NCBI GenBank assembly: GCA_016203175.1
Contig: JACQNH010000091.1
Coordinates: forward strand, 1-36,670
Length of the DNA: 36,670 nt
From: Candidatus Woesearchaeota archaeon
GTDB taxonomy: Archaea; Nanobdellota; Nanobdellia; SCGC-AAA011-G17; JACQNH01
Direction of reading: 5' to 3'
Position numbers and translations under genes: made by a program. Shown one piece after another: positions 5,550 to 27,731 of this stretch. The notes beneath the pieces were generated by a model. It worked only from the letters and a program-made list of their open reading frames with translations, was not told the DNA's origin and made no database searches. Each line of letters starts with the position of its first letter. The stretch's first letter is position 1.

Positions 5550-5677
5550 TGGGCCCGAGCAGACTTTCAATGTTTTCTTTCCTTTCTTTACGAGGTTTCT
5601 TTTTAAAGAAAACTCTTTTGAACTGCCGACCCCTGCCTTATCAGAGCAGTGCTCTAGCCAGGCTGAGCTACGGACCC
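5550..5677 (-). tRNA. tRNA-Ile (GAU) with a 53-nt intron in the T-loop (59/60)
   Basis: Spliced: GGGTCCG TA GCTCAGCCTGGCTAGAGC A CTGCT CTGATAA GGCAG GGGTC GGCAG TTCAAAT CTGCT CGGGCCC A. Intron at 5564..5616; BHB junction TTCA/TGAA with AA^A and AG^T bulges. Confidence 0.9.
5564..5616 (-). other. tRNA-Ile T-loop intron
   Basis: 53 nt AGAGTTTTCTTTAAAAAGAAACCTCGTAAAGAAAGGAAAGAAAACATTGAAAG; removal restores a 7-nt TTCAAAT T-loop. Inner helix GAGTTTTCTTT:AAAGAAAACAT with one A.A mismatch. Confidence 0.85.
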
Positions 5678-5721: not shown

Positions 5722-5808
5722 CGCCTCAGGCTGGACTCGAACCAGCGACCCCATGGTTTCTACACAGTCTTTAACAGCCATGTGCTCTACCTGCTGAGCT
5801 ACTGAGGC
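5722..5808 (-). tRNA. tRNA-Asn (GUU) with a 14-nt canonical (37/38) intron
   Basis: GCCTCAG acceptor; CATGG CTGTTA[AAGACTGTGTAGAA]A CCATG; T-arm GCTGG TTCGAGT CCAGC; discriminator G. Confidence 0.9.
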
Positions 5809-11734: not shown

Positions 11735-14428
11735 TTATATCCTGCTTATAAAACCTTTTTTTGGCTCAAATAATTCGCCTTCTTTTTTTAATTTTTCAAG
11801 TAAATCATAAACTTCAGTCTCAGAAATATCTTTCTTTTGAGCATCTTCAATTATATCCCCGACCGCAACTGTTTTTCCTTTTTTTTCGCTTAAATTAATT
11901 ATAATTTCCCTTAACATTACTATTTTGCTTCTAGTTGATGCAGCTATTCCGGTGCTAATAATATCTATATCCATCTTTCCAGTCTTAGGGTCAATTCCAA
12001 CCTGTTCTAAACATGCAGTCATAATTTTGATTGCTCTTTCAGCATCCTTTGAAGTAACCTTTTTAGCCATTCTTACCCTTGCACTTGCCTCAGATAGCCT
12101 TACAATAGCTTCTAATTGTCTTGCAGATATTGGTATTGGTCTTACACCTTCATCACCTGTACTTCCAGAATTTCTTAAATCAACATAAAACTTCTTAATT
12201 ACTGCAATAGCATTATTAGTTAGTATAGGTTTGCACTTTTGTCTTGCATAAGCAACATATTTTTTAACAAACTCATTAGGTATTTCAGGCGCAGACTTTT
12301 CAACGTTTCTCATAGTTTCTAAAACATGTGAAGCAATTTTTTCATCTTTATCTTTATTTGGAATATCTCTTACAGGGAAGATTAAATCAAATCTATTAAT
12401 CAAAGCAGGAGGTAAATTTATTTGAGCTGCAATTGGTTGGTAAGGATCAAATCTTCCAAATTTAGGGTTTGCGGCAGATAATAATGTTGTTTCAGCCCTT
12501 AAAACAGCTTGAATATTAGCTTTTGAAATAGAAACTTGTTCATTAGCTAAAACCTCATGTAAAGCAGATGTATCTTCAGTAGAAATTTTATCTAGCTCAT
12601 CGATCATTGCATAACCCCCATTAGCTAAAACTAAAGTTCCTGCCTCTAAAGCCCAACCTTTCAAGAATTCATCTTTAACAACTGAAGCAGTATTATGAAC
12701 AATAATCCCGTTGGCTATGAAATTATGCGCTTCTTTTACAGTTATATCATAAACATACTCGTAAGTTGGTTTTATTAAACCTATATATTTAATTCTCTCC
12801 CATAACAGATCCGGTCGACCTAAAATTTTGAGATAGTCTAACTCTTTAAAACTTTTTTGTCGTAAAGATTGTATCCTTGAGATAAATTTATTTAAGTAAG
12901 CCCTACTATTATCTCTTCTCAACAGTGAAGATTTACGTCCGAATATTTTTCTTGAAATTAAGGAGATAGTAGGTATTTTAAAGTCACTTTTAACATTGAT
13001 CTCACGAGCAGTAGCAATATGATCGGACTCTCTTAATTCCATCGCCTTTTTCCATAAAACACCTTCTTTGTTAATTGTCAATAACTTTGTATTTTTTGTA
13101 AGCTCAATCTTTTTACCGCTTTGCAAGGTTATCGATACAATCTCCTTAGGGGCTTTTATCTTCCAAAAATGCTCTACTTCTCTCGTATTAATCTTTAAAT
13201 TGGGATCTACAGAATACACTTTAATACCTGTTTTATTCATTGTTCTATAGATGTCTTTTGAATATTCTTCGCTTCCATTCTCTAACTGTTTCTCAACTTC
13301 ATATTTTATTGGAGTAAGCTCCCCAGGGTTCTTCATAATTAAAGAATCAGGAGCTATACACAAACCAGCTGCAGAAGCCCCCTTACCAGCAACGTATCTT
13401 GCCTTAGGCGCAACTTTTGATAAAGATAATAATAAAGTACTTTTAGCGCTGCCAGGATCACCAACTAATAAAATGTGCATATTTCCCCTTGTTTTAGTAC
13501 CATCTTTCTTTTCTTTCTTAACTCCACCCATTAATTGCAAAATTACAGCATCTTTAATATTCTCATGTCCAAAAATAGAGGGTGCAATAGAATTTCTTAA
13601 TCTTTCATAAACATAAGGATCTTTAGAAAGTTCAATAATCTTTTCCTCATCTTCTTTGTTTATTTCCACATCTTCAAAAGTCTCTTCTATGGGTTCAACA
13701 TAATTTGCATCAATCATTAAATCATATCTTATACTTTGTGCACCAGTCTTCAACATTATAGGCACTTCTCTTACAATACCATTAACTCTTACCTTTGAAC
13801 CAGGAGTAGTTTTCTTTTCTAATTTGGGTTCAACTAAATCCTCTTTAAGAAATACAGAAATTCTTTTAGGCTGCGCCCCCCCTTCTAATTTCTCAGGAAC
13901 TTCTTCTATTACCAATCTTTGAGCATCAACTAAATCACGATGTATTAATCTAAAAGTTCCTCTTCTCCCACAAGTGCATCTTGATGGTTCTTTAAATCTA
14001 GTCTCAACTTGTATTATTGATAGGGTATTTCCGCAACTAGGGCATTCAAATTTTGCCATTGTAACTTGAGGCCTTACATCAGATGTTTGTCTTACAATTC
14101 CATCAACAGCTAAAAATTTATTTAGATGAACACTTCTTATATTTCTTATTTCAATTCTTTGTGATTCAGGTAAATTTTCAAATCTTATTCTCAAACTAAT
14201 TTCTTCAGGAATAAAAATCTGTGACAAAGCAACTTCAGCAGCCTTTGTAGCGTTTTCAGGGTCGTTCAATAAAAATTCAGCTAATTCAATATCAAAGGCA
14301 GCTAATTCTTTAAAATCCAAAACTATAGACTTCTTTCCTTCTGTTAAAATATCATGGATTTTATTCTCATAATGACTCTGTAAAAATTCCTGAAAGTGTT
14401 CTATCTGTTCCTGTACATCTAAAGCCAT
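11735..14428 (-). CDS. mcm: MCM replicative helicase containing an in-frame intein
   Basis: Zn ribbon CPSC...CTCG, Walker A GDPGSAKS, Walker B AMIDELDK, arginine finger region NRFDLIF. Extein GKGASAAGL|TASVVKDEF is interrupted by an intein. Confidence 0.96.
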   Translation of the reverse strand: MALDVQEQIEHFQEFLQSHYENKIHDILTEGKKSIVLDFKELAAFDIELAEFLLNDPENATKAAEVALSQIFIPEEISLRIRFENLPESQRIEIRNIRSVHLNKFLAVDGIVRQTSDVRPQVTMAKFECPSCGNTLSIIQVETRFKEPSRCTCGRRGTFRLIHRDLVDAQRLVIEEVPEKLEGGAQPKRISVFLKEDLVEPKLEKKTTPGSKVRVNGIVREVPIMLKTGAQSIRYDLMIDANYVEPIEETFEDVEINKEDEEKIIELSKDPYVYERLRNSIAPSIFGHENIKDAVILQLMGGVKKEKKDGTKTRGNMHILLVGDPGSAKSTLLLSLSKVAPKARYVAGKGASAAGLCIAPDSLIMKNPGELTPIKYEVEKQLENGSEEYSKDIYRTMNKTGIKVYSVDPNLKINTREVEHFWKIKAPKEIVSITLQSGKKIELTKNTKLLTINKEGVLWKKAMELRESDHIATAREINVKSDFKIPTISLISRKIFGRKSSLLRRDNSRAYLNKFISRIQSLRQKSFKELDYLKILGRPDLLWERIKYIGLIKPTYEYVYDITVKEAHNFIANGIIVHNTASVVKDEFLKGWALEAGTLVLANGGYAMIDELDKISTEDTSALHEVLANEQVSISKANIQAVLRAETTLLSAANPKFGRFDPYQPIAAQINLPPALINRFDLIFPVRDIPNKDKDEKIASHVLETMRNVEKSAPEIPNEFVKKYVAYARQKCKPILTNNAIAVIKKFYVDLRNSGSTGDEGVRPIPISARQLEAIVRLSEASARVRMAKKVTSKDAERAIKIMTACLEQVGIDPKTGKMDIDIISTGIAASTRSKIVMLREIIINLSEKKGKTVAVGDIIEDAQKKDISETEVYDLLEKLKKEGELFEPKKGFISRI
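12692..13360 (-). other. Mini-intein (223 aa) in MCM, no LAGLIDADG motif seen
   Basis: Starts CIAPDSLIM..., block B-like IELTKNTKLLT, blocks F/G VYDITVKEAHNFIANGIIVHN, +1 Thr. Removal restores ...GKGASAAGLTASVVKDEF. Confidence 0.93.
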
Positions 14429-15136: not shown

Positions 15137-15221
15137 TTTTAATCAGCTATTCTTATTTAAAAAGGTTTAAAAAGGTATTTATAAAGCAAAGATTTAAATA
15201 CATATACATACATTGAATAAT

Positions 15222-15455
15222 ATGACCACCAAATGTATAACAATAACAAGTGAAGCTTATGAGCGCTTGTCTATGCTTAAAGCTCCTTATGAAAGTTTTA
15301 GCGAAGTTATAACTAAACTTACTAAAAAATATTCTTTCTTTGATCTTATTGGGCTTTTATCTAACAAAGAAGCAGAAGAAATGCGCGAACACGTAGCTGA
15401 TTTAAGAAAAAGGTTAAGGAAAGAAGTTAATCAAACAGCAGAGAGGCTAAAATGA
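15222..15455 (+). CDS. vapB: VapB-like antitoxin
   Basis: MTTKCITITSEAYERLSMLKAPYESFSEVITKL; overlaps the PIN toxin. The track starts at a TTG at 15213; ATG at 15222 is likelier. Confidence 0.8.
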   Translation: MTTKCITITSEAYERLSMLKAPYESFSEVITKLTKKYSFFDLIGLLSNKEAEEMREHVADLRKRLRKEVNQTAERLK

Positions 15456-15844
15456 TATTTGATACAGGGTTCATTATAGACTTAATGAACAAAAACACCC
15501 AAGCATTAAATAAACTTCAAGAATTAATGAATAAAAAAGAATTACAATATATCACATCTCTGACTATTTTTGAATTATTTAGTGGTTTATCTAAAAGTCA
15601 AAAACCAGAAGAAGAAAAAAAGAAAATAACAACCATTCTTATTGGTTTGCCGATCTTTGATCTTGATAATCAATGTGCTGAACTGGGTGGGGAATTAGAC
15701 GGGATCTTAATAAAAGAAGGTAAAATGATTGGTGCTATTGATAGTATGATCGCAGGTATAGCTTTAACAAAAAATATGTCTGTTTTAACCAGAAACATAA
15801 AAGATTTTTCAAAAATAAAAGGTTTAAAGACTGAAACTTACTAA
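15452..15844 (+). CDS. vapC: VapC PIN-domain toxin
   Basis: MIFDTGFIIDLMN..., conserved acidic residues (D4, E in TIFELFSG, AIDSMIAGIA). Confidence 0.88.
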   Translation: MIFDTGFIIDLMNKNTQALNKLQELMNKKELQYITSLTIFELFSGLSKSQKPEEEKKKITTILIGLPIFDLDNQCAELGGELDGILIKEGKMIGAIDSMIAGIALTKNMSVLTRNIKDFSKIKGLKTETY

Positions 15845-27408: not shown

Positions 27409-27433
27409 AAAATAAAATTTGGGCCCGAAGGGA

Positions 27434-27487
27434 CTTTCATAACCTTCCTTTTCTTTCACCAACGTTTCTTTTTTAAAGAAAGGTTGT
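27434..27487 (-). other. tRNA-Lys intron 3 (54 nt, T-loop 59/60)
   Basis: TTCAAA^ACAACC...GGTTATGAAAG^TCCCTT; BHB: GAGGG/CCCTT, TTCA/TGAA, bulges AA^A and AG^T, inner helix AACCTT/AAGGTT. Confidence 0.87.
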
Positions 27488-27509
27488 TTTGAACCCTCGA
27501 CCCCCTGGT

Positions 27510-27536
27510 ATCCCCAGAGTTAGCTGCTGGTTATCT
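27510..27536 (-). other. tRNA-Lys intron 2 (27 nt, canonical 37/38)
   Basis: CTCTTA^AGATAACCAGCAGCTAACTCTGGGGAT^ACCAGG; removal closes the CCTGG/CCAGG anticodon stem. Confidence 0.85.
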
Positions 27537-27543
27537 TAAGAGC

Positions 27544-27591
27544 TTCACCATTTCTTTCGCCAACGTTTCTTTTTTAAAGAAAGGTTGTGTT
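27544..27591 (-). other. tRNA-Lys intron 1 (48 nt, position 30/31)
   Basis: CCTG^AACACAACC...TGGTGAA^GCTC; BHB: GAG/CTC, CACC/GGTG 4-bp helix, bulges TG^A and AA^G. Confidence 0.85.
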
Positions 27592-27731
27592 CAGGTGCTC
27601 TAACCAGACTGAGCTACGGACCCCCAATCTAAAAAGCATAGATTAAGCTTTAAAATCCTTTTGCTTTATAATTTTCTATATAACACACTATCACAGAAAT
27701 ATTTAAAAGTAATCCTCCAAAGGCTTAAAAT

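Follow-up and report, generated by a model that had tools for sequence, protein, structure and literature searches.

A dispersed palindromic element of Woesearchaeota-like genomes, probably mobile, that forms the core of predicted tRNA introns

Several described systems resemble, in part, the one reported here. In the Thermoproteales, similar introns are found in different tRNAs and are read as the product of large-scale intron transposition (PMC4090602, PMC4033280, PMC3293823, citing Fujishima et al. 2010); the Rickettsia palindromic elements (RPE) insert in-frame within protein genes (PMC5656822); and in Caldiarchaeum the disruption of tRNA genes has been linked to mobile DNA, an integrase-bearing element and attachment-site recombination being proposed (PMC3293823). 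Here we consider a 36,670-nt stretch of DNA from a Candidatus Woesearchaeota archaeon (contig JACQNH010000091.1; hereafter ‘the window’), in which a tRNA-Lys(CTT) gene carries two near-identical 38-nt blocks as the cores of two of its three introns. We think it probable that these blocks are copies of a non-autonomous, mobile palindromic element of Woesearchaeota-like genomes, the 38-mer representing one subfamily, and that predicted bulge-helix-bulge (BHB) splicing renders the copies in tRNA genes harmless. The origin of archaeal tRNA introns is an old open question; filled and empty sites within one genus, as described below, tie intron gain to a dispersed palindrome.

The tRNA-Lys(CTT) gene runs from 27623 to 27421 on the minus strand, and is organised as follows:

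27592..27623, minus strand: exon 1 (tRNA positions 1–30); the exons match those of the intron-poor ortholog (L062) in a same-genus relative, G001
27544..27591, minus strand: 30/31 intron, 48 nt; BHB exon CACC/intron GGTG; 5' bulge TGA, 3' bulge AAG; outer pairs GAG/CTC
27551..27588, minus strand: repeat core in the 30/31 intron, 38 nt; hairpin 27587–27561, mirror tail 27560–27551
27537..27543, minus strand: exon 2 (31–37), holding the anticodon CTT
27510..27536, minus strand: 37/38 intron at the canonical site, 27 nt, lacking the repeat core; the G001 ortholog is likewise interrupted by an intron at 37/38
27488..27509, minus strand: exon 3 (38–59)
27434..27487, minus strand: 59/60 T-loop intron, 54 nt; BHB exon TTCA/intron TGAA; bulges AAA and AGT; intron helix AACCTTTCTTT/AAAGGAAGGTT
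27450..27487, minus strand: repeat core in the 59/60 intron, 38 nt; hairpin 27486–27460, mirror tail 27459–27450
27421..27433, minus strand: exon 4 (60–72)

The two blocks, each of 38 nt, lie exactly where an initial annotation of the sequence had placed them, and its assignment of the introns to the T-loop (59/60; 27487–27434) and to 30/31 (27591–27544) is also right. They differ solely at position 9 (A/G on the plus strand), and the identity between them ends abruptly, with not one additional matching base on either flank; by our own estimate, the chance of a 38-nt match with one mismatch arising within 36.7 kb is far below 1e-6. Unspliced, the gene is detected in the window neither by ARAGORN nor, at the gathering threshold, by the Rfam model for tRNAs; excision of the three introns in silico, however, yields a 74-nt product that ARAGORN folds as tRNA-Lys(CTT). 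A 4-bp helix set between two 3-nt bulges is present at both the 30/31 and 59/60 junctions, the genome encodes two EndA splicing endonucleases (PF01974), and BHB splicing of the tRNA introns is predicted from sequence. When the whole precursor is folded, CACC pairs with GGTG at the 30/31 junction together with a GAG/CTC outer stem, and the 59/60 intron is closed by AACCTTTCTTT pairing with AAAGGAAGGTT; the 38-nt core is thereby predicted to fold differently in the two introns, as a local hairpin in one and as part of a long closing helix in the other. With lengths of 27–54 nt and no match to an Rfam catalytic core, the introns do not belong to group I or group II. Rfam searches of the tRNA-Lys gene, at gathering thresholds and at E ≤ 10, turned up no family of relevance; what matches there were, microRNA-type and of low complexity, scored far under the threshold.

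A search with the core across its own genome (G000) and those of relatives, as the initial annotation had proposed, does recover dispersed copies, many of them in tRNA genes; within the own genome, further copies lie both in tRNA genes and between open reading frames (ORFs). We put the number of copies in the own genome at about 20. With a covariance model built from six copies, whose E-values are rough, and a cut-off of E ≤ 0.1, the own genome has 24 matches, G001 has 15 and a third genome, G043, has 28, with matches in 31 of 61 relatives overall; class-wide, under stricter filters, 28 of 238 genomes contain matches at E ≤ 0.001. As these copy counts derive from searches, they are lower bounds. 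Occurrence is patchy over the class, copy number ranging from 0 to 28 inside one order, and a search of a phage collection gave no matches. In genome G039, near-identical copies occupy unrelated loci. The limits of the block shared by the two tRNA-Lys introns coincide exactly with those of a repeat present at dozens of other loci, which supports the proposal that a defined core has moved and is mobile. That it moved ‘within the gene’ is too narrow a reading, since the two copies may just as well have been inserted separately, each from some member of the same subfamily. Two side observations belong here: a variant element (L192–L199; G039, G011, G028) is near-identical at unrelated loci, several of its copies having a longer upstream repeat in common (ATGGACAAC..GTTTTCCAT..), and three tandem copies with a 48-nt period sit in or beside an antisense ORF of G001 (L060; G001:C27:6582-6719).

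Orthologous sites were compared between genomes. The syntenic tRNA-Lys(CTT) gene of G001 holds an intron at 37/38 only; its 30/31 and 59/60 sites are empty, as expected for the mobile core that had been suggested. The tRNA-Lys(CTT) of genome G010 has no intron at all. A neighbouring gene gives an 86% match to ‘Candidatus Woesearchaeota archaeon isolate nzgw36’, on whose contig the tRNA-Lys locus is the one seen in G001. The Lys-type tRNAs of G016 and G017 have 30/31 introns with different cores, and there may have been an older 30/31 intron whose core was lost or exchanged. The pattern extends to other genes: three tRNAs, among them tRNA-Gln(CTG) and tRNA-Gln(TTG), have T-loops that are filled in the own genome and continuous in G001, those of tRNA-Glu and tRNA-Ala(GGC) are filled in G001 and continuous in the own genome, and that of a Leu/Arg-type tRNA is filled in both. 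Outside tRNA genes, a site at the stop codon of Kae1 is filled in the own genome and empty in G001. Inverted copies nested within tRNA introns (L091, L138), along with the near-identical copies of G039, also speak for movement.

The element itself is about 35–44 nt long and consists of a hairpin followed by a 3' purine tail, the tail being a mirror image of the hairpin’s purine arm. The hairpin opens with ‘stem 1’, whose 3–4 pairs covary; further in come a C.C or C.U mismatch, itself conserved, then a stem of pyrimidines against purines and finally a short loop. The initial annotation had suggested that the palindrome TTTCTTtaaaAAGAAA may be the mobile part; the mobile unit is larger, for the conservation takes in stem 1, the C.C mismatch and the mirror tail (GAAAGAAA) as well. 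Stem 1 occurs as CAAC/GTTG, GAAC/GTTC, TAAC/GTTA, GAG/CTC, AAG/CTT and other variants, and pairs in 147 of 162 cells (shuffles 112 ± 4, maximum 126); tail and stem carry equal runs (of A and T, respectively) in 62 of 77 copies, where shuffles average 33.5 and reach 46; and, of 48 informative copies, 29 have the mirror of the arm inside the tail, against 10 on average and 17 at most in shuffles—all figures that, the copies being kin by descent, are not to be read as probabilities. An ordinary alternative antiparallel fold does not account for the tail, full-length antiparallel matches (9/48) being at shuffle level, against 29/48 for the mirror. Because a mirror cannot arise through ordinary copying, we infer a structural constraint on the tail. 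Brief helical pairing of the type CT(m)C/GA(m)G is possible, and the mirror tail perhaps reflects a triplex. Covariation of a mirror tail with a hairpin arm is an unusual constraint, and could point either to a triplex or to the manner in which a mobility factor recognises its substrate.

Turning to tRNA genes more broadly, a dedicated T-loop search, which replaced an excision and ARAGORN script that had found only 6 tRNA introns, identifies 32 BHB intron sequences at 59/60 with a paired T-stem, most of which hold a hairpin of the element’s ‘grammar’. In the own genome, 59/60 introns with such a hairpin include those of tRNA-Val, Ile, Gln, Leu/Arg-type and Lys; by inspection, 37/38 copies are found in tRNA-Pro (own genome) and tRNA-Trp (G001). 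The Ile example lies in the window:

5551..5677, minus strand: tRNA-Ile(GAT) with a 59/60 intron (5616–5564) built from an element copy (5615–5580); reported by neither ARAGORN nor Rfam when the window was searched

With both the tRNA-Lys and tRNA-Ile genes of the window overlooked by these tools, the tRNA gene sets of such genomes are under-counted. Several tRNA genes hold two or more copies (L136 and L138 of G043; L270 of G095), and where a tRNA intron has a single copy the element is always in sense orientation. Three side observations may be added. Two tRNA genes of G095 (L270, L271) seemingly contain at least four copies, one of them inverted; a second hairpin repeat (AAGGATTGCATCCTTATCAACCTG) also fills T-loop introns (L158, L170, L176, L180; G016, G043), and follows a stop codon at L134; and the gene at 5722–5808 (minus strand), called tRNA-Phe(aaa) by ARAGORN, has by our reading the anticodon loop CTGTTAA (Asn, GTT) and a 37/38 intron.

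The element, described at first as a tRNA intron core, is not confined to tRNA introns: copies are also found within ORFs, next to stop codons and inside 23S rRNA. In G078 and G095, copies lie inside the LSU_rRNA_archaea match, a BHB at these 23S sites not being established. An in-frame copy gives the GGR-like reductase of G043 exactly 12 extra residues relative to three orthologs; another forms an extra loop in a presenilin-type protease (PSH), and is absent from its orthologs; and in GrpE of both the own genome and G001 the C-terminus is formed by the element.

As to how such a distribution might arise, we propose that the whole element is inserted at new sites, probably as a single-stranded DNA hairpin mobilised in trans by some enzyme. 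Copies in tRNA genes would be tolerated where exon and element end together make a BHB motif, from which splicing endonuclease and ligase could then excise the insert; the T-loop would be favoured because its invariant TTCR can pair with an intron-terminal YGAAAG, which the tail of the element resembles. Elsewhere, copies would be tolerated in-frame within proteins or, at gene junctions, through a stop codon at the start of the element. The tRNA-Lys introns would then represent two recent insertions, or one insertion plus its copy. Two candidate agents were examined and rejected: Y1 transposase is not found in G043, G003, G028, G032 or G033 and has no link to copy number, and reverse transcriptase likewise has no link to copy number, with no domain in G043 or G032, both of which contain copies.

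Several observations weigh against this proposal. No target-site duplication was seen by eye in several copies and no enzyme encoded by the element was found; neither Y1 transposase nor reverse transcriptase turns up in G043, the richest genome of its set with 28 copies, a negative to be taken with caution because this genome is 92% complete. Moreover, 13 of 19 copies with a same-strand stop codon no more than 60 nt upstream begin at −2 to +4 of that stop, and genic copies favour the sense strand (35 versus 16, p = 0.011), counts that include a few tRNA copies and pattern hits from outside the family, the strand lean therefore being only indicative; random insertion of DNA predicts neither.

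These last features would fit mobility at the level of RNA, in which an intron, once excised, enters other RNAs (pre-tRNA, mRNA, rRNA) by reverse splicing or ligation, is copied to DNA and recombines into the genome, a route that one might also imagine for the transposed tRNA introns of the Thermoproteales. The stop-codon clustering and sense-strand lean (from the same rough set), the uniformly sense orientation of single-copy tRNA introns and the presence of abundant RNAs (tRNA, 23S) amongst the targets all fit such a route; we consider it unlikely, however, given that no reverse transcriptase domain is found in the copy-bearing G043 and G032, that inverted copies are nested in tRNA introns (L091, L138), and that many targets are ORFs where the element apparently stays in. 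Clustering at stops and the strand lean would also suit a conserved functional RNA element—a protein-binding or processing hairpin that selection maintains in introns as well as gene junctions and that rarely, if ever, moves—as would the strong covariation of stem and tail. But presence and absence vary within one genus at orthologous tRNAs and at the Kae1 locus, the in-frame GGR and PSH copies are missing from orthologs, and copy number runs from none to 28 inside a single order, such that we give this explanation hardly any credence.

A more limited alternative concerns only the origin of the second tRNA-Lys copy: intragenic duplication or gene conversion, with the core copied solely between the two introns. 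In its favour, the two copies match each other (37/38) better than any other copy found in the genome. Against this, the identical block stops precisely at the limits of the genome-wide repeat, tRNA genes with multiple copies recur (G043 L136, L138; G095 L270), and the existence of dispersed copies weakens the case further; we regard it as very unlikely. A mobile, non-autonomous palindrome, inserted as a unit, is the reading we prefer.

Three other features of the window were noted in passing: an MCM helicase ORF (11735–14428, minus strand) with an apparent intein, beginning with C and ending with HN, between GASAAGL and TASVVKDE; a two-gene pair (15213–15844, plus strand) resembling a VapBC-type antitoxin and PIN toxin; and, at the contig edge (36318–36629, plus strand), a fragment similar to a DDE integrase/transposase in its C-terminal region.

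We more tentatively entertain the possibility of an undescribed class of archaeal mobile element, in which a self-contained hairpin carries a mirror tail compatible with triplex formation and the ends of the unit make up a full BHB once it is inserted. One and the same ~38-nt unit would then be spliced out as an intron of tRNA (perhaps also rRNA) genes and be tolerated as an insert within protein genes or at stop codons; if this is true, it would keep supplying archaea with new introns. We found no account of one DPANN repeat doing all of these things, in a literature search that left most subscription journals outside and so is no proof of novelty. Amongst described systems, the transposed tRNA introns of the Thermoproteales share with ours several introns per tRNA and BHB junctions; here too the same intron sequence occurs at several tRNA genes and positions and is absent from close relatives. 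They belong, however, to another archaeal branch, and the hairpin-plus-mirror-tail unit described here extends beyond tRNA genes to ORFs, where it sits in-frame, to stop codons and to 23S rRNA. The hairpins of repetitive extragenic palindromes and miniature inverted-repeat transposable elements derived from IS200/IS605 are similarly short, imperfect, mismatch-containing and numerous, but the Y1 transposase associated with them is lacking in G043 and several other copy-bearing genomes. Caldiarchaeum offers a parallel in the recent gain of an intron by a tRNA gene within a close population, tied to mobile DNA; here, in contrast, we see a 38-nt repeat without a gene. Lastly, the RPE are, as here, dispersed palindromes found in-frame in protein genes without a transposase of their own, a habit matched by the 12-residue GGR insert, PSH and the GrpE C-terminus. 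The likeness is one of habit. RPE are about 100–150 nt in length; the present element is much shorter (about 36–40 nt), archaeal, equipped with a mirror tail and doubles as a predicted spliced tRNA intron.
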